A DNA stretch of 64,000 bases, from assembly GCA_964017185.1 (NCBI GenBank), contig OZ024874.1:54601356-54665355 (forward strand), given 5' to 3'. The position numbers were made by a program, and so were the translations under genes. The first letter of the stretch is position 1. Each line of letters opens with the position of its first letter. Shown one piece after another: positions 11,530 through 57,781 of this stretch. The notes under the pieces are model-generated. The model was not told the DNA's origin and did not search any database. It saw nothing but the letters and a program-made list of their open reading frames with translations. The DNA comes from Rugalucina vietnamica. Its lineage: Eukaryota > Mollusca > Bivalvia > Lucinida > Lucinidae.

Positions 11530-12240
11530 TCAAATCCTGAATAATTTCTTGTCAATAGCATAAGGGTCATATAAGGGAGAACTGTAAAACAAATGAGGCA
11601 TAACAGGAGGTCTATAATACTTATTTTCAAAAGCTGATTCCTGGGTCCGAACCTCATTTCCAAAGTCATTCAGAGCACTTCCATACACTTGGTTGCCGTA
11701 GAAGTCCTGTCGCGGTGCCACTGAAGTGGCTAAATCGTCAAAACTTTCCGCAGTCCGTTTATTTATAGCGGTTGAATCTAAATCACGAATTCCAGGGGCA
11801 AAGTTTTGCGACGAATCGGTATGACGAATCACATTGGTTTCCGCAACACGCTTTACGTCGAAAGCGTTCATATTTTGCGTCAAATCATCACTGTCGTTCC
11901 TAAAACTATAATCTCTGTTGAACATTTTATCATTCAAAGAAGAATTATTATTGTTCTCTCCTGACAACAAACGACTTTTCAAACTATTTCTTTCAATTCC
12001 ATCTTCCCGCTCGGGAAACTTTGAGATGACGTAACGTTCGAGATCATCAGAGGCGCTTTCATAATCACGTTTCAGGCGTTTTTCAGATCGCGATTCCAGT
12101 AAATCGTCCTTTGCCTGAGAATCATTGTCGTAAAATGGGAGAAACTTTTCACCACTTGACGGCACTGACTTGTTATTGTCTTTATTGTCCCCTGATGAGC
12201 CTGGCGTATTGTCTATAGTCCCTAATTTGCCATCATCTAG
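11530..12240 (-). CDS. In-frame 236-codon readthrough extension of POU3F
   Basis: Directly after the POU3F TGA the same frame reads LDDGKLGTIDNTPGSSGDNK and stays open for 236 codons to a TGA at 11532-11530. The stop context is TGA CTA G, a motif established as a strong readthrough signal in genes such as OPRL1, OPRK1, AQP4 and MAPK10. The predicted extension is hydrophilic, charged and Asn/Asp/Ser-rich. It has four Asp-Asp-Leu motifs (extension residues about 45, 65, 118, 168), an NLS-like basic patch (EKRLKRDY, about 53-60) and an aromatic C-terminus (HLFYSSPLYDPYAIDKKLFR). No ATG lies near its start, so independent translation is unlikely. An AATAAA occurs inside it at 11763-11758 (minus strand) but falls in coding sequence. 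A chance open frame this long in AT-rich 3' sequence is very improbable. Alternatives are a sequencing error or allele at the TGA, or an intron removing the stop. Readthrough itself is inferred. Confidence 0.72.
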   Translation of the reverse strand, partial: LDDGKLGTIDNTPGSSGDNKDNNKSVPSSGEKFLPFYDNDSQAKDDLLESRSEKRLKRDYESASDDLERYVISKFPEREDGIERNSLKSRLLSGENNNNSSLNDKMFNRDYSFRNDSDDLTQNMNAFDVKRVAETNVIRHTDSSQNFAPGIRDLDSTAINKRTAESFDDLATSVAPRQDFYGNQVYGSALNDFGNEVRTQESAFENKYYRPPVMPHLFYSSPLYDPYAIDKKLFRI

Positions 12241-13575
12241 TCAATGTCCTTGTTGTCCCGGAGACTGGTAGTGATGGTGAGGCAACGGAGTCTGTAGATG
12301 AGCAAGTGACACAATATGACTCGAACTCGGAGACATAGAGTGCGACGAAAGCGAAGAAATTGGCGACATCCCCATATTGCCCATATTTAACACACTATCC
12401 CCACCGTGTCCATTTGATTGCAGCGGGCTTCCCGGATCTCCTGGCTTCATTTCAAGAAGCCTAGTTGGGTCACTCGGTTTCATGTCCATTCTATCCATTC
12501 TCTGTGGCGAATGATCTCCCTGCTCACCGTCCGACATTAAGAGTTCACCGTTCGGCCCGAGGGGGCCAGGTGGGGTCATTCTTTTCTCCTTCTGTCTTCG
12601 ATTACAGAACCAAACCCTAACCACTTCCTTCTCCAGCTGTAGAGAGTCCGCTAACTGAGAAATTTCCTGAGCCTGGGGCTTGGGCTGCTTTAGAAAGTGG
12701 CTTTCAAGAACCCCTTTCACTGTCACTTCAATACTTGTTCGCTTCTTACGCTTTCTACCCTGTGCGGCTATTTTGTCTATGCTTGTTGTCGAGCCCGTTG
12801 AATTATCCGCCTCTTCAAGCCACTTTTGAAGTAAAGGTTTTAATTTACACATATTCTTAAAACTTAATTGCAAAGCTTCAAATCTACAGATAGTTGTTTG
12901 GCTAAATACATTACCATACAATGTACCGAGTGCTAAACCAACGTCCGCTTGCGTAAATCCAAGTTTTATTCTACGCTGTTTGAACTGTTTTGCGAATATT
13001 TCCAAATCGTCCGATGAGGGGGCGTCCTCGTCCGAGGGAGTCTGAGGCCCCTCTAGGTCCACTTGATCCGGGTCCCTCATGGAGGGGTGAATCTGGTGAG
13101 CAGGTGATAACATTCCGTTCATACCGGGGTGAATTCCGTAAGCGTGGTGCTGTAGCTGACCCCCACCGTTCGCTAAGTTCAGGTGGGTCGGAGTCATAGG
13201 CGAGTGCCATCCCTGAGGCGAATGTAAATGCTGTGGAGGACGGTGGTGTAAGGTGGTCCCCGGGTGGGTCCCGTCGGCATTCGAAAGTCCTGGTTTCATG
13301 TCCCTCATCATATCGTGTGGGTTGTGTAAACCCATCCCACCGTTAGACCAGTGGTTCATATCACCGGGTATCGGACCCCACGGGTTATGTCCATGATACT
13401 GTAGATGTCCATTCTGATGTTGAGGTGGTGTATATTTCATGTCCGGAATCTCTCGCGGTATGTAAGGCATCGACTGTGGTACTGAATAATTGAACTCGAC
13501 AGGGGATCCACTGTGTCCCGTGGGTGATCCCGACCCTAGGTATAGTCCCGCGGTAGTTGCGGCGGTCATCGCCAT
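12241..13575 (-). CDS. POU3F: POU domain class 3 transcription factor (intronless)
   Basis: This is a complete single-exon gene for a 444-aa nuclear DNA-binding protein of POU class III, orthologous as a class to vertebrate Brn1/Brn2/Brn4/Oct6, fly vvl and worm ceh-6. These factors regulate neural and ectodermal genes through octamer-like sites. The N-terminal 180 residues are low-complexity, rich in His, Pro, Gly, Gln and Met. The POU-specific domain spans about residues 181-258 ([40 protein letters not shown]). A short linker ([11 protein letters not shown]) follows, then the homeodomain at about 274-333, beginning [11 protein letters not shown] and containing the helix-3 motif [12 protein letters not shown]. 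The Ser/His/Pro-rich tail ends SPGQQGH. I chose the ATG at 13575: it is the first in-frame ATG after an upstream in-frame TAA, and it has a good Kozak context (A at -3, G at +4). Lack of introns is usual for class III POU genes. The TGA stop at 12243-12241 is followed by CTAG and a long open frame (see the next entry). Domain identity is certain; the exact paralogue name is inferred. Confidence 0.97.
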
Positions 13576-19348: not shown

Positions 19349-20240
19349 AATTACATCAACAATGTCAGACACGGAATACACATCGGTTTCACACCTCAGG
19401 TGTCATACAGCAAAACCATAACCAGATCCGTTACATCGCACAGCCGCGGCATGGGCAATGAGAGAACGTGGAAACATAAATGAATAAATGCAAATGAAGT
19501 TGAAAGGGTAGTTAACTTTGAGCGACTCTATGCCGTTTAAAGACTTGACAGCCATTTAAAAGTATTATTACTGCTGATGTAGATACGATCGCGCAAACTT
19601 GTTTTCCAAAGTTCCATACGCAGTTCAGCGATTTTCATTTTCCTGTGACACAGTTTATCGGATTGTCCCGCGGTGTTTCCATACTGTCAACTCCTCTGGT
19701 CCCGCCTTCTTTTAGGCCACGCCCACCATTAATTAAGCTCCGCCCACGACCCGCCTTCCTCTAGAGCGTCCCAATTTGGTTGTCATGCTGGTTTCGCTGT
19801 AAATATAATAAAATAGTTTTAGAGCCTGGCCGCATGTTTGGGATCTAGTGTTACAGAATATCCCATTATTAGTGACATCCTTCTTGCTGGTTAAGAACAT
19901 GTAAAGTCATTTTGGTTAATGTAACTTAATTTGCTGTTATTGCCTGTTTTAAAGAAGAAAAGTACCATTCCCAAATATTTCCTATTGTAGCTCAATACAT
20001 TATTATTATTTTTTTTTTTTTTCATTCGTTCGTTTGCTTTCTCATTTATTTGTTTTTTTTTTTATCTATTCGTTTTATTCTCGGATCTAAAATAACGGCT
20101 TTATTGCAGCAACAATATGCAGAAGAAGTAATAAAACTTTCTTATATGATGTACATTCTGCATAGACGAGGAAACTAATAGTGTTTTCATTGTTCGTTAA
20201 CTTGACGCAATATTTTAAATGTTGATTTCATTCGAAGGTT
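19349..20240. other. Unrecognised sequence with GC-box-like motifs
   Basis: No gene seen. CCACGCCCACC and CTCCGCCCACG at about 19710-19750 resemble Sp/KLF sites but have no gene next to them. Confidence 0.35.
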
Positions 20241-20266
20241 CATATCCCATGGTACTTAACGATATA

Positions 20267-20318
<52 letters not shown>

Positions 20319-20554
20319 TATACTTTTGTCCATTTTATGCAATGCATCTAAACGCAGGTTTTGGGTTTTAAATTTATCCATGTAGACTTTCGATTTTCGG
20401 TGTTTGCAAACTTTTCCTGCAAAAGTTAAGGGATTTTTTGCTTCCCCAAGATTACAAATACGAGCAAGATTCCGAATAGAAGAAGAAGAACGAAAAGCAA
20501 CAGCTTTAGAATAAAATTTCTGTTTGTTCATATCCCATGGTACTTAACGATATA

Positions 20555-20609
<55 letters not shown>

Positions 20610-20816
20610 TATACTTTTGTCCATTTTATGCAATGCATCTAAACGCAGGTTTTGGGTTTTAAATTTATCCATGTAGACTTTCGATTTTCGGTGTTTGCAA
20701 ACTTTTCCTGCAAAAGTTAAGGGATTTTTTGCTTCCCCAAGATTACAAATACGAGCAAGATTCCGAATAGAAGAAGAAGAACGAAAAGCAACAGCTTTAG
20801 AATAAAATTTCTGTTT
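20241..20816. repeat. 288-bp tandem duplication containing (AAT)n
   Basis: Two almost identical 288-bp units begin CATATCCCATGGTACTTAAC at 20241 and 20529. Each holds an (AAT)n tract of 15-18 units followed by the same unique sequence to CTGTTTGTT. Near-identity implies a recent duplication or an assembly artefact. Tyrosine-rich open frames here come from the AAT tract. Confidence 0.9.
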
Positions 20817-20825
20817 GTTTGTCAT

Positions 20826-27699: not shown

Positions 27700-29645
27700 A
27701 TGTATGTCACACAACCGTCAAGTAATTGAAGGATATAGTTACCTTGTGACATGAAGTTTCTTTCTATGGGAGACACCATGACCGTCTTAGATACATGGTT
27801 GGGAGGAGGGAAATAGCTGATTAGATTTTGGTGAGTTTGACCTATTTTCAAGGTCACCAGTCCATGAAAACTGTCAAAATTAGCTTTTCCGACTGCATAA
27901 ATGTAGATGTTCACTTGATTTGAGTTGGTCTGACAGCCCTATGGGTGTGAATGGTTTGCTGTCAAAATTATTTAAACTGTACACATTTATAGGACCTGGT
28001 ATTAACTTGCCCGTTGTTTGGCAGTGGTTGTAAGAATGACACGAGTAAATGAGCTATAGATGTTTGTGCAAGTTTGGTAAAAAATATATTAATTTGATCA
28101 GAAGATATGGTATCGGAAATGTTTATCTAAACAGTTTTAATGGGCTGGCGATTTGAAAATTAGTTCAAGGTCACCAAAATCTAGTAAACACTGAGTCCCC
28201 TCCCAGCAATGTTTCAGTGCAAGTTTGGTAAAACATCCATCCATTTGCTCAGAAGACATGGTATCCGAAATGCTTAATTTTCAAGGTCACCAAAATTTAA
28301 TCAACTCAACCTTGAAAAATTAGGTCAAGGTCACCAAATTTATAAACTAAGTCTCCTCCGAACAATGTTTCTGTGCAAGTTTGGTAAAAGATATGGTGTT
28401 GGAAATGTTCATTTAAACAGTTTTCATGGACTGGTGACCTTGAAAATTAGGTCAAGGTCACCAAAATCTAATCAACTATGAGTCTCCTCCCAGCAATGCT
28501 TCTGTGCAAGTTTGGTCAAAACAAAGCCATTTGTTCATAGGATATGGTGCTGGAAATGCTAAGTTTAACAGTCTTCAGGGGCTTGTGACCTTGGAAATAG
28601 GTTCAAGGTCACAAAAATCTGATGAACTCTTTGTCTTATCCCAACAAAGTTTCTGTGCAAGTTTAGTTAAAATCCATCCATTGGTTCAGAAGATATAGTG
28701 CCGGAAAGGCTAATTTCAAGAGGGCTGGTGACCTTGAAAATCAGGTCAAGTTGACCAAAATTTAATCAACTACATGTATAAGTCTTTTTCCAACAATCTT
28801 TCTATGCAAGTTTGGTTGAAATCCATTCATTTATGTAGAAGATATCGCGTCGGAAAAGCTAATTCTGACGGTTTTCATGGGCTGGTGACCTTGAAAAATA
28901 GGCCAAGGTCACCAAAATCTAATAAACTCTATTTCTTATCCCAACAATGTTTATGTGCAAGTTTAGTCAAAATCCATTCATTGGTTCAGAAGATATAGTA
29001 CCGGAAAGGCTAATTTCAACAGTGTTCATGGGCTGGTGACCTTGAAAATCAGGTCAAGTTGACCAAAATTTAATCAACTATAAGTCTTTTTCAAACAATC
29101 TATGCAAGTTTGGTTAAATCCATTCATTTATGTAGAAGATATCGCGTCGGAAAAGCTAATTTTGACGGTTTTCATGGGCTGGTGACCTTGAAAAATAGGC
29201 TACGGTCACCAAAATCTAATAAACTCCATGTCTCAACCCAACAATGTTTCTGTGCAAGTTTAGTCAAAATCCATTCATTGGTTCAGAAGAAAGCTAATTT
29301 CAACAGTGTTCATGGGCTGGTGACCTTGAAAATTCGGTCAAGTTGGCCAAAATTTAATCATCTCTAAGTCTTTTTCCAATAATTTTTCTGTGCAAGTTTG
29401 GTTAAAATCCATTCATCTATGCAGAAGATATCGCGCCGGAAAAGCTAATTTTGACAGTTTTCATGGGCTCGTGACCTTGAAAAATATGTCAAGGTCACCA
29501 AAATCTAATCAACACTTTCTCTTCTCCCAACCATGTATCTATGCAAGTTTGGTTCAAAAGATATCGTGTCGGAAAGAAGCTACGCGGACGCCGACGCAGA
29601 CGCCGACGGGATCCGCACCAAAGCAATATGTCCCCCGCCTTCGGT
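27700..29645 (+). repeat. 150-bp tandem array ending in a GACGCCGACG linker and terminal hairpin
   Basis: About eleven units marked by TGCAAGTTTGGT at about 28069, 28220, 28374, 28505, 28654, 28805, 28955, 29102, 29252, 29391 and 29541. Each also has a GGGCTGGTGACCTTGAAAA / AGGTCAAGGTCACCAAAATC inverted pair. From 28654 on, two unit types alternate, a dimer of about 300 bp. A unit at about 27770-27905 is inverted. The array ends with GGACGCCGACGCAGACGCCG and the hairpin TATGTCCCCCGCC/GTGGGGACATA. It looks like a non-autonomous element with a satellite core. Confidence 0.8.
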
Positions 29646-36398: not shown

Positions 36399-37913
36399 TC
36401 ACCTGAGCCGAAAGCTCAAAGGTGAGCTTATAGGATATGCAGGCACCCGGCGTCCGTCCGTCGTCCACCATTTTCAAAGATCTTCTCCACTGAAACCTAT
36501 TGGCCAATCAAAGCCAAATTTTATAGGAAGCATCAATAGGGAGAACCTATATTTATATACACATTGGGGAACCAATGTGTATATAAATAATCCAGGTTAA
36601 ATGACCAAGATGGCCGCCATGCCCATATATGGTAAAACCCTTCAAAATCGTCTTCGCCGGAAGTGGTTGGCCGATTTCAACGAAACTTGGCATGAAACAC
36701 CGATAGCTCAAGTACTACAATGTATATATAAATCATGACCCTGTGATGACCTTGATCTATTTTACGGCAAGGTCAACATAGGTCGCCTATGCATTTGAAT
36801 GAGGGAAAACTGTTAAAATGTCATTTAAAGGGAAAAACTTGCAGGAAATGAGCAACAGGACGGAATATTAATGATTCTGAAAAAAATGACCACAGGGGCT
36901 CATATGCCCCCACCCCGGGGCAATATACATGTATATTACCATAATATTCAAACATCTTCTTCTCTGAAACTGCTTGGCCAATCAAAGCCAAATTTTATAT
37001 GAAGCATCTATAGGAAGTGGGAATCAATGTATATATAAATAATTCAGGTCACATGACCAAAATGGCCGCCATGCCCATATATGGTAAAAACCCTTCAAAA
37101 ATTTTCTTCTCCGGAACCGGTAGACCGATTTCAAAGAAATTTGGAATGAAGTATTGATGACTCAAGTACTACAATGTATATATAAATCATGACCCTGTGA
37201 TGACCTTGACCTATTTTACGGCAAGGTGAACATAGGACTCCAATGCATTTGAATAGGGAAAACTTTTAAAATGTCATTTAAAGTAAAAGTCTTGCAGGAA
37301 ATGCGCAGTAGGACTGAATATTAATGATTCTGAAAAAAAAATACTGGTCCCTAGGAGCATATGCCTCGACCCCGGGGCAGTATACATGTATGTTAACATA
37401 ATATTCAAACATCTTCTCCTCTGAAACCACTTGGCCAATCAAAGCCAAATTTTATGTGAAGCATCTATAGGATGGGGTAACCAATGTATATATAAATAAT
37501 CCAGGTCACATGACCAAGATGTCCGCCATTCCCATATATGTCAAAGACCCTTCAAAAATCTTCTTCTCCGGAACCTGTGAACCTATTTCAAAGAAACTTG
37601 GCATGAAGCCTCAATGGCTAAAGTACTTTAATGTATATATAAATCATGACCCTGTGGTGACCTTGACCTATTTTACGACAAGATCAACATAGGTCGCCTA
37701 TGCCTTTGAATGGGTAAAACTGTAAAATGTCAGTTGAAGGGAAAGACCTCTAGGAAATTGGCAAATGGACAGGATATTGATTATTATGGGGGGAAAATGG
37801 CCCCAGGGCTTCATGTGCCCCTTTACTGGGGCTATTTTCCATAATATTCAAACATGTTTATCAGTATATACAACAGATCTCAGGTGAGCGTTTACAGGAC
37901 CATTGGTCCTCTG
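36399..37913 (-). mobile_element. Oppositely oriented copy of the same 455-bp family, nested
   Basis: Starts with the terminal hairpin GCTCACCTGAGCCGAAAGCT, then the CGTCCGTCCGTCGTCC linker. Three reversed units follow (GGCCGCCATGCCCATATATG at about 36615, 37061 and 37518). It ends CAGGTGAGCGTTTACAGGAC and ATTGGTCCTCTGG. It splits a forward unit between GAAGGGTTTT and ACCATATATGGG, so one family member inserted into another. Confidence 0.7.
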
Positions 37914-38970: not shown

Positions 38971-41900
38971 ATTACCCAGGGAGCCAAGCCCCGTTTTGGG
39001 GAGAGGAGGTGACATCACCTGCTGTAGTTGGTTTGAATACAATTTTGGTTAGGCTTTGCCATCCTATTGAAGGCCTGGGTGGACTGCTCACGAATATTTT
39101 TTGGCGCGATGGTTAAATTACGCATTGTTTCATGCTATTTGAGCTGCCTACTTTTACAAACGTTTTCTAGATATATGAACGTATCCTTTGTGTTTCAGAT
39201 CATTAACTGCTGAATTTTCTAGTCTAGAGCAATGCTAGGAATCACAGATAAAGCAGTAATCTTATTATATTCTTTAATTCATACTTTTGCAGCTATTGTT
39301 TTAGTATTTATGATGTTGAATTACCCCACCCACTTACATAATAATATGAATCATGAAATTTAAATAAATGCATAGTGATTCGTGAGACATTGAAGAACAA
39401 ATGAATATGTGATGTGCTCATAAACATTATACATGTATTTATATTTATTGTTGTCATTCAGTTTCTTTATAAATTTACATTTGTTCATCATTATTATGAC
39501 CAAGTCCATGGTCAGATTACCGTTTCCTATAAAATGTCAGATGTAAGTTCTCATTGTTCCATAGGCTGGATCATGCACACCTTTAAGCAAGCGGCTATGA
39601 AATACTACAATTGTATCTAGTTAGTTGTTCACTATTGTCATATCAATCATTTGATACTAATTTCAGCTCTCTAGGATTTTTGGTTGCTGAGATATAAACG
39701 TTTCTGTTGATATACCCCCTCTATGTTTGTGTGATTTGTATCTAATATTTTAAGTTATCATCAATATTTAAACAACAAGATAGTTGCAATATTCATTTAT
39801 CTTATCATTTGGTTATAGAACATTATCATGGCAATCATTCGATGCCAATTTCAGCTCTCTAGGACATTTGGTTGCGGAGTTATAAATTTTTTGTTGGTAT
39901 ACCCCCTCCATGTTTCTGTGATTTTTCTCTAATATATTTAAAGTTTTTATCAATATTGGAAAAACAAGTAAGTCAGATTGTTTGTGTGTCTTAGCATATG
40001 GTTATAGAACATTATCTTAGCAATCATTTGATACCAATTTCAGCCCTCTGGAGCATTTGGTCACTGAGAAATTAGCAGTTTTATTGGTATACCCCCTTCG
40101 TTTGCCAGTGATTTTTCTCTTATATCTTAAGTTTTCTTAAATATTTGAGCAACAAGAAAGTCAGCTTGTTAATATATCTTATTACATGGTTATAGAATAT
40201 TGTCATAGCAATTATCTGATACCAATTTCAGCTCTCTATGGCTTTTGGTTGCTGAGATATACACGTTTTTATTGGTATACCCCCTCTTTTTTCTGAGATT
40301 TTTATCTAATATTTAAAGTTCTCATCAATATTCCAACAACAAGAAAGTAGTATTTTTTATAGTTCTTATCACATGATTATAGAACATTGTTATAGCAATT
40401 ATTTGAAACCAATTTCAGCTCTCTAGAGCTTTTGGTCACTGAGATATTTTTAATTTTATTGGTATACCCCCTTCATTTGCCAATGATTTTTCTCTAAAAT
40501 CTTAAGTTTTCTTAAATATTGGAGCAGCAAGAAAGTCAGCTTATTTATATATCTTAATACATGATTATAGAATATAGTCATAGCAATTATTTGATACAAA
40601 TTTCTGCTCTCTATGGCTTTTGGTTGCCGAGATATAAACATTTCCGTAGGTATACGCCCTCCATTTTCTGCAATTTTTCTCTAATATTTTAAGTTTTCAT
40701 CAATATTCGAACAGCACGAAAGTCTGATTATTTATGTGTCATATTTTGTGGTTGTCATAGCAATTATTTGTTACAAATTTCAGCTCTCTATGGCTTTTGG
40801 TTGCTGAGCTATAAACGTATCTGTAGGTATACCCCCTCCATTGTTCTGTGATTTTTATCTAATTTTTAAAGTTCTCATCAATATTTAAACACCAAGAAAG
40901 TCAAATTATGCCTGCATTTTATCACATTATTATAGAACTTTATCACAACAATCATTTGATATAAATTTCAGCTCTGTAGAATTTTTGGTTGCTGAGATAT
41001 CAGCAGTGTTGTTGGTATACCCCCTTCATTTATCTGTTATTTTTCTCTAATATCTGAAGTTCTCTTTAAGAATTGAGATTAAGATAGCCAGCTTGTTTAT
41101 ATATCTTATTACATGGTTATAGAACATTGTCATAGCAATCATTTGATAACAATTTTGAGCCTTCTAGATATTTTGATTGCTGAGGTATAAGCAATTGTGC
41201 TGGTATACTCCATTTTTATGTGATTTTGTTTTCTAATATATAAAGTTCTCATTGATATTCAAACACCAGGAAGTCTGTTTGATTACATGGTTATAGAGCA
41301 TTGTCAAAACAATCTGATACCTATTTCTGCTCTCTAGGTCTATAAGTAGCCAAGATACATGTGGTAATATAGGGGTAACACATCACTTCCTCTGCTTATT
41401 AGGGGCGGGGGTGAGCATTCTGTGATTTTATGTGACACAAATGGGCATTAAAGTGATCCTCTGACCAAACTGGCACCCATGAGCATTTGTTCTAAGGGTG
41501 CAAGGTAAGTCCTATAGATAACCCGCCCCAAACACTTCAAACGGCAATATGAGAAGCCAAGTTTTGCTTAAATTAATTTTGGCAGACTTTTTCCGCATTT
41601 ACCAATCATTGTTTTGTCTCTACATGAGTAAATAAACTTTGAAAAGGATGTAAACAGAGTAAAAAGTAATAAAAATGTTATAAAAATAATGATGACATTA
41701 ACATTTGTTGATAAAATGTACTGATAAAAGTATATTGATTCTCATAATTGCACATAAAGTTTAACATATACATTAAGTGGGTGGGGTAATTCAATGCCTT
41801 AAGATGACACATAGTTTACTCAAATGACACATTTACAGCTTTATACATGGGTAAGACATACTCAGCCACAATCAGACAAGATAAAATGGCATCAGTATAG

Positions 41901-44067: not shown

Positions 44068-45075
44068 GGAGGTCGATATCGCACCTGCATCGGGCAAAAT
44101 AATTAAACACGTGAAATATAGGTCAAGGTGTGCGCTTAAAGGGTATGTCAAGGACAATTACTATGCAAGGTTTCACATTTGCAGCTACCTTAGGTGCAAA
44201 GAAAATTAAAGTTTGATGTAAAACTAATAAAGTCAATGGACCATAGAATATAGGTCAAGGGCAACGGGTCAAGGTGCGTGCTTAAAGGGTACATCAAGGG
44301 TAACTATTATGCAAGGATTCACACTAGCACTTATCACAGGTGCAGAGAAAACCAAACTTGGACTTAAAAATTTACAAAGTCAATGGACCGTGAAATATAG
44401 GACAAGAGCACCGGTTCAAGGTATATGCTATAAGGGGTATGTCAAGGACAATTACTGTGCAAGGTTTCACATTCGCGGCTATCACTGGTGCGGAGAAAAC
44501 CAAACGTCGACGTAAACATTAACAAAGTCAATGGGGCGTAAAATATAGGCCAAGGGCACTGGGTCAAGGTGTGTGCTTGAAAGGTATGTCAAGGACAATT
44601 ACTATGCAAGGTTTCAAACTTGCGGCTATCACTGATGCAGAGAAAACCAAACTTCGACGTAAAAATTAACAAAGTCAATGGACCGTGAAATATAGCTCAA
44701 GGCCACTGGGTCAAGGTGCGTGCTAGAAGGGTATGTCAAGGACAATTATCATGCAAGGTTTCACACTCGCAGCTATCACTGATGCAGAGAAAACCAAAAT
44801 TTGACGTAACTTCGACATAAAAATTAACAAAGTCAATGGACCATGAAATACAGGTCAAGGGCACTGAGTCAAGGTGCGTGCTTGAAGGGTATGTCAAGGA
44901 CAATGCATTACTATGCAAGGTTTCACACTCGCAGCTATCACTGATGCAGAGAAAACCAAACTTCGACGTAAATGTCAAACTTCGAAATAAATGTTGACGG
45001 ACGGACGGACGCACGAACACACGGACGTACGGAAATTTGGACTTCCATATCGCACCCTGCTATAAGCAGGTGCGA
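44068..45075 (+). mobile_element. TIR element with 148-bp tandem core
   Basis: TATCGCACCTGC near 44079 is mirrored by GCAGGTGCGATA near 45064. The interior has about six units of roughly 148 bp (AAAGTCAATGGACCGTGAAA, AAGGGTATGTCAAGGACAAT, TGCAGAGAAAACCAAACTTC). A linker of GACGGACGGACGGACGCACG precedes the right terminus, which is itself a hairpin (GCACCCTGCTATAAGCAGGTGC). Noncoding. Confidence 0.8.
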
Positions 45076-56580: not shown

Positions 56581-57781
56581 TATACCCCCCGCAAAGTCTT
56601 CTGAAGCTGGCCAATAACTTCCTAACTCAAACCTGCAGAACATTTGTCAAAGATATCTTTTCAGCATTATAATCCTTCATGTACATCCCCAGTATGCTAG
56701 TCACATCTATAAGATATTAAAAGAATATATTGAAAGCTTGAGGTTGATTTCATTGTATGCACTATGATCATTGTTTATCATGAGAAATGGTAAAAATTGG
56801 CTAAGTTAAATAAAAGCTGTAAATTTGTCAAAAATTAAATTTTCAGCATGAAAATTATTCATGTACATCTAAAATATATATCTGGAACAAATCTACAAAT
56901 TTAAAAGAAACACTGAAAGCCCTAGGAGGAGTTGATTTCACAAAGTATGCACTACCAACCATTACTGTATATAAGCAATGGTCAAAAAATGACTATGTAG
57001 AAAAATGCTGTAAATTTGTCAAAAATTATTTTTTCAGCATTATAATTCTTCATACACATCTTCAATATGTGTGGAACGTGTCTGCAAAGTAATGAAAAGA
57101 AATACTGAAAACCCTAGGAGGAGTTGATTTCACAAAATATGCACTACCAACCATTATTGTATAAGCAATGGTCAAAAATGGCTATGTTAAAAAATGCTGT
57201 AAATTTGTGAAAAATTATTTTTTCAGCATCATAATTCTTCATGCACATCTTCAATATGTGTGGAACATGTCTGCAAAGTATTGAAAAGAAATACTGAAAG
57301 CCCTAGGAGGAGTTGATTTCACAAACTATGAACTACCAACCATTATTGAATATGGCAATTATCGAAAATTGGCTAAGTTCAAAATGCTGTAAATTTGTCA
57401 AAATTCATTTTTTTCAGCATAATACTTCTTCATGCATATCTTCAATATATCTGGCACATATCTGCGAAGTATCAAAAGAGAATATTGAAAGCTGTAGGAG
57501 GAGTTGATTTCACAAAGTATGCACTATTAGCACTATGGCAAACATTCTATGTATAGGTTTAAAAAGTCCCATAACTCTTGCAAAACTGACCCTTTAGCCC
57601 CTAAATTCATATCACACATGTGTTGTCTAATGGTGCAGGTGTGTTGAAAAGTTGAACAACATCGGGCAAAAACTACTTAAGTTATACAGCAAATATGTCA
57701 AAATGTTGACGGAATCACGGAATCACGGACAGGCTGAAAACAGTATACCCCCCCTAAAACTTCGTTTTGCGGGGGGGTATA
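56581..57781 (+). mobile_element. Satellite-core element with TATACCCCCCGCAAA termini
   Basis: Starts TATACCCCCCGCAAAG and ends TTTTGCGGGGGGGTATA. Units of about 185 bp (GCTGTAAATTTGTCAAAAAT, CTAGGAGGAGTTGATTTCAC) fill the core. ACGGAATCACGGAATCACGG precedes the right terminus, which is a hairpin with TATACCCCCCC. Noncoding. Confidence 0.8.

Follow-up and report, generated by a model that had tools for sequence, protein, structure and literature searches.

Programmed stop-codon readthrough is very probably the best explanation for a long conserved tail that follows, in frame, the stop codon of a POU class 3 (POU3F) gene in the bivalve Rugalucina vietnamica. The gene lies on the minus strand of the window, by which we mean the whole 64,000-nt stretch of DNA that was analysed. 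Its reading frame, ORF1 (12244..13575, with the ATG at 13575), comprises 444 codons and ends in a TGA (12243-12241) that is followed directly by CTAG; together these seven bases (12237..12243) read as the leaky UGA-CUAG context. As the initial annotation had it, the same frame then stays open for 236 codons (12240-11533) until it meets a second TGA (11532-11530), which would end the long form of the protein. Translation through the first TGA, where the sequence continues CTA GAT GAT GGC, would give a predicted product of 681 residues.

By this mechanism, one locus would give rise to two forms of a POU3F transcription factor. Most ribosomes would halt at the UGA and release a 444-residue protein, as the ORF1 ends of relatives suggest, while some would decode the UGA within UGA-CUAG by a near-cognate tRNA, probably that for Trp, Arg or Cys. 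Decoding would then run on through 236 codons, stop at the second UGA and yield the 681-residue protein, with an added tail that is charged, probably disordered and equipped with conserved short motifs. The context had earlier been named as leaky in OPRL1, OPRK1, AQP4 and MAPK10, which agrees with its description as common to these four mammalian genes with efficient readthrough (PMC4132726). It was leaky in mammalian reporters, and UGA-CUA alone was reported to support 1.5% readthrough (PMC4132726).

The identity of ORF1 was established from domain matches and from its closest relatives. Pfam matches placed a POU-specific domain (PF00157, E 8.4e-38) at residues 188-257 (12805..13014, minus strand) and a POU homeodomain (PF00046, E 3.7e-19) at residues 276-332 (12580..12750, minus strand). 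The best PDB chain was a 'POU domain protein' without a class in its name (311 bits), and among chains named by class POU3F1 came out on top with 301 bits, against 199 bits for POU2F1. The closest named proteins, among the best 120 of 6829 matches, were bivalve POU3F4-like proteins, with identities of 74% for Mercenaria, 71% for Dreissena and 68% for Mya. With both POU domains present and class 3 nearest, ORF1 is a POU class 3 transcription factor, as judged from domain and database matches. Among the open frames of at least 95 codons, POU3F was the sole clear coding gene in the window, and neither a tRNA nor an Rfam family at gathering score was found anywhere in it.

The open frame of the tail is far longer than expected by chance. 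The window has 7117 stop triplets whose following frame is closed, and among the runs behind them that of the tail is the second longest; the longest, of 457 codons, contains ORF1 itself, and the third, of 150 codons, falls within a tandem repeat. With four models of base composition, the probability of 236 open codons was between 7e-8 and 1.3e-6. The claim of the initial annotation that the frame exceeds chance holds, and these values are lower than its figure of about 1e-5. Each of the tail's other five frames contains 8-30 stops. The TGACTAG motif by itself means little, as it is not rare in the window (6 observed versus about 8 expected). Within the 1.09-Gb genome (47 contigs), the tail matched a single place at E<=0.001.

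Two further observations concern the DNA of the tail and its surroundings. AATAAA hexamers occur inside the tail on the minus strand at 12186 and 11763, the first of them about 55 nt past the stop, and alternative polyadenylation at these hexamers could strip the tail from some mRNAs. Elsewhere in the window there is a tandem duplication of a 291-bp unit with AAT repeats (20238-20819, 98% matches), together with diverged tandem arrays at 28388-29559, 36565-37758, 39634-41208, 44121-44972 and 56642-57526, whose units measure about 147-457 bp.

The tail was recovered from relatives by two protein searches. The first admitted proteins of about 375-1193 residues (1132 candidates) and gave one match, P0002, a protein of 497 residues in which the POU domain, the homeodomain and the complete tail share one frame, the tail at 61% identity. 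For the second, a tail-only profile was built from window residues 489-681 and P0002 and run against 1040 candidates at E<=1. This profile had six matches, namely the window's own ORF and five other protein clusters (P0123-P0127), the latter with 60-84% identity and E-values of 7e-78 to 3e-102. Over aligned residues, the six relatives (P0002 and P0123-P0127) are 61-86% identical to the tail of the window. Some of them are close to one another, with an identity of 93% for the pair P0123/P0124 and of 82% for P0002/P0125, so that the six represent perhaps four lineages. Scans of viral_contigs and genome_contigs gave no match for the relatives' DNA.

A conserved frame behind the stop, as would be expected from the initial annotation, was found at the protein level: all six relatives keep the frame of the tail and end at the residue equivalent to its last, with the shared terminal sequence IDKK(L/F)FRI. 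Each comparison with the window contains 5-12 insertions or deletions, and since the alignment is intact on both sides of every one of them, the tail frame has been kept; the relatives were aligned as proteins, so that single frameshifts are visible only as lost alignment. This conservation of frame and end point supports the reading of the tail as a long C-terminal readthrough extension.

We then compared the substitutions in the tail with those of a neutral simulation, in which the DNA of the window's tail was mutated to the identity of each relative in 300 runs and the mean BLOSUM score of the mismatches was recorded. The observed mean was reached in 5, 2, 3, 0, 0 and 0 of the 300 runs for P0002 and P0123-P0127, respectively. 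By this measure, the mismatches in the tail are milder than simulated neutral change. At the distances of the relatives, simulated tails contained a mean of 1.8-4.9 stops and 0.3-18% of them were stop-free, a figure that flatters the coding case because the database holds called ORFs only and the relatives are not mutually independent. Between the window and P0002, identity is 66% in the tail, 87% at the end of ORF1 and 99-100% in the DNA-binding domains. Taken at the level of the aligned proteins, the tail is coding sequence under protein-level constraint.

How such a tail could be joined to ORF1 was addressed by considering the sequence on both sides of the stop. It is very unlikely that alternative splicing does so, with an intron that, in a subset of transcripts, removes the stop and links the tail to ORF1. 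There is a donor-like site of fair strength at 12527 (score 8.4 of a maximum of 12.7), and the tail offers acceptor-like sites at 11582 (10.3) and 11961 (6.2); donor and acceptor can be paired across the stop, in frame, in 895 ways, the best being 12527/11961 (8.4 and 6.2). However, this pair would re-enter the tail at codon 94, and the acceptor at 11582 only at codon 220. Because both points lie beyond the conserved block (codons 49-79), these splice sites cannot explain that block, and the in-frame pairs that would retain it have acceptor scores of 1.1 or less. Moreover, the residues flanking the stop are alike in the window and in P0002, where they belong to one called frame. Straight after the stop, the two read LDDGKLG and LEDGNLG, and this likeness from the first post-stop codon speaks for direct continuation. 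The orthologues of fly and human are, in addition, described as intronless (PMC8417969).

Somewhat less probable again is that the TGA is an assembly error, a polymorphism or a recent nonsense mutation of a TGG codon, in which case the tail would be the normal C-terminus of the protein. P0002 has a tryptophan exactly at the stop site, which could reflect a real TGG, but it could equally have arisen from gene calling under code 4, in which TGA means tryptophan. The next 12 matches argue against a TGG origin: in these (P0003-P0014, which include Mercenaria, Mya and Dreissena) ORF1 ends, as judged by eye, at an apparently homologous place, with GH as the C-terminal residues in 11 of them and PGQ in one. 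Furthermore, for five of the six tail relatives the called ORF lacks ORF1, which suggests that an in-frame stop lies upstream there too. A histidine directly precedes the stop in 75 of the 119 POU3F relatives listed (P0003-P0121) and in 26 of the 29 nearest (P0003-P0031), and it persists in proteins that have diverged just before it. This terminal histidine could represent a C-terminal motif, or else a selected 5' stop context.

A-to-I RNA editing, which would turn UGA into UGG in some transcripts and thus yield two protein forms from one locus, appears more improbable than either of these. Editing is known in some molluscs, but the A to be edited here follows a G, which is a poor ADAR neighbour. 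There is also no notable RNA structure near the stop. Folding of the segment from +4 to +84 gave a z of -0.59, so that no stem-loop stood out; nine other folding windows gave nothing unusual (z -0.71 to +0.78), and in stability the 80 nt past the stop ranked only 79th among 99 windows along the locus. The lack of a stem-loop is likewise a point against readthrough, although such structures assist it in some cases and are no requirement for it. For the fly orthologue, a test for editing close to the stop was reported as negative (PMC8417969).

The idea that the tail is translated alone, whether by internal initiation or as a gene of its own, seems to us scarcely tenable. Both the ORF lists and the protein database do present the tail as an ORF of its own, which in the window begins with GTG, and a non-ATG start is conceivable. 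Against this stand the similarity of P0002 directly from the stop onward and the position of the first in-frame ATG in the window's tail at codon 106. As the conserved block at codons 49-79 precedes this codon, initiation at an internal ATG would leave it unexplained. Finally, decoding of the UGA as selenocysteine, for which UGA is indeed the codon, can practically be dismissed, given that no SECIS family was among the 8 Rfam matches between 8000 and 14500 (E<=5), that the whole window lacked a match at gathering score, and that the 9 matches to a loose SECIS-like pattern were uninformative.

Readthrough would add to POU3F a tail that differs in composition from the protein before it. The residues D, E, K and R make up 31% of the tail versus 18% of ORF1, and the tail is acidic, with a net charge of -10. 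It is enriched in Asp, Ser, Asn, Leu, Arg and Lys, and His (0.8% of the tail) and Pro are scarcer than in ORF1. The tail includes the stretch ESASDDLERYVISKFPER. Conservation among the relatives is found in three blocks. The first, at residues 494-524 (ESRSEKRLKRDYESASDDLERYVISKFPERE; 12004..12096, minus strand), corresponds to tail codons 49-79 and contains a KRxKR motif as well as the only predicted helical stretch. This KRxKR is present in the window and in 5 of the 6 relatives, the sixth (P0126) beginning inside it, and such a motif is a possible nuclear signal. A second block was evident from the relatives' alignment at residues 575-589 (KRVAETNVIRHTDSS; 11809..11853, minus strand). The third occupies the C-terminus (residues 651-681; 11533..11625, minus strand) and ends in the IDKK(L/F)FRI common to the window and all six relatives; its last residues, F-R-I, would presumably fit a class II PDZ ligand, which is a speculative assignment.

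An AlphaFold2 model of the tail, based on an alignment of six rows, was mostly unstructured (mean pLDDT 49, pTM 0.13), and no fold was found at this confidence. Helix was weakly predicted at tail residues 63-74 and 76-79 only, inside the first conserved block. As modelled, the tail is probably disordered, and it combines a high charge with short motifs that are conserved. Judging from fly Dfr-L, its presence would probably alter transcriptional output or the activation of target genes, an effect perhaps limited to particular tissues or stages. Expression of POU3 genes has been described in the ganglia of squid and abalone (PMC4407788).

The statement in the initial annotation that no readthrough form of a molluscan POU3F had been described agrees with our literature survey, in which none was found, for any mollusc or for molluscan POU3F, among the titles and abstract openings listed from the open-licence literature. 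What had been missed is that readthrough is already experimentally proven for the fly orthologue, drifter/vvl, where a UAG-C stop is followed by a tail of 286 codons (PMC8417969). Glutamine is inserted there at the stop, readthrough can be as high as 50% in prothoracic gland, and neither splicing nor editing is reported to have been found at this stop (PMC8417969). The tail of Dfr-L was described as raising its capacity to regulate target genes, and drifter readthrough as being required for the correct timing of pupariation (PMC8417969). For fly dfr, a stem-loop at +9 to +59 was tested and promotes readthrough (PMC13170385). The molluscan candidate most likely joins the known readthrough of the fly orthologue as a new case.

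If the present reading is correct, a constrained 236-codon extension of POU3F would mean that long functional post-stop extensions exist in a mollusc. Either the switch would be ancestral to fly and mollusc, or recoding would have arisen twice within one class of transcription factor. Two origins are favoured. A single ancient switch that predates the mollusc-insect split and was retained in bivalves and flies, with a tail that has diverged beyond recognition and a stop that has changed between UGA and UAG, appears unlikely. No named insect protein was among the matches at E<=1 when the molluscan tail served as query.

With respect to its stop context, the molluscan gene resembles mammalian OPRL1, OPRK1, MAPK10 and AQP4, with which it shares the identical seven bases (PMC4132726). 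The proteins are unrelated, however, and readthrough was measured in the mammalian genes whereas here it is predicted from sequence. Another case of readthrough in a lophotrochozoan, proposed from antibody staining, is that of the Platynereis FVa/EFLGa precursor, which is a neuropeptide precursor and not, as here, a transcription factor (PMC3890597). The fly gene differs from the molluscan one in combining UAG-C with a stem-loop (PMC13170385), as opposed to UGA-CUAG without a notable stem-loop, and its tail is reported to be rich in His, Ala, Pro, Gln, Ser and Asn, compared with Asp, Ser, Asn, Leu, Arg and Lys here. Nevertheless, the two have in common the POU3F class, a C after the stop and a long in-frame tail (286 codons in the fly, 236 here). 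The tail of fly Dfr-L is described as mostly disordered (PMC8417969) and that of the molluscan gene was modelled without a fold, and the long product of the molluscan gene would, like that of drifter, share the DNA-binding domains of the short form (PMC8417969).
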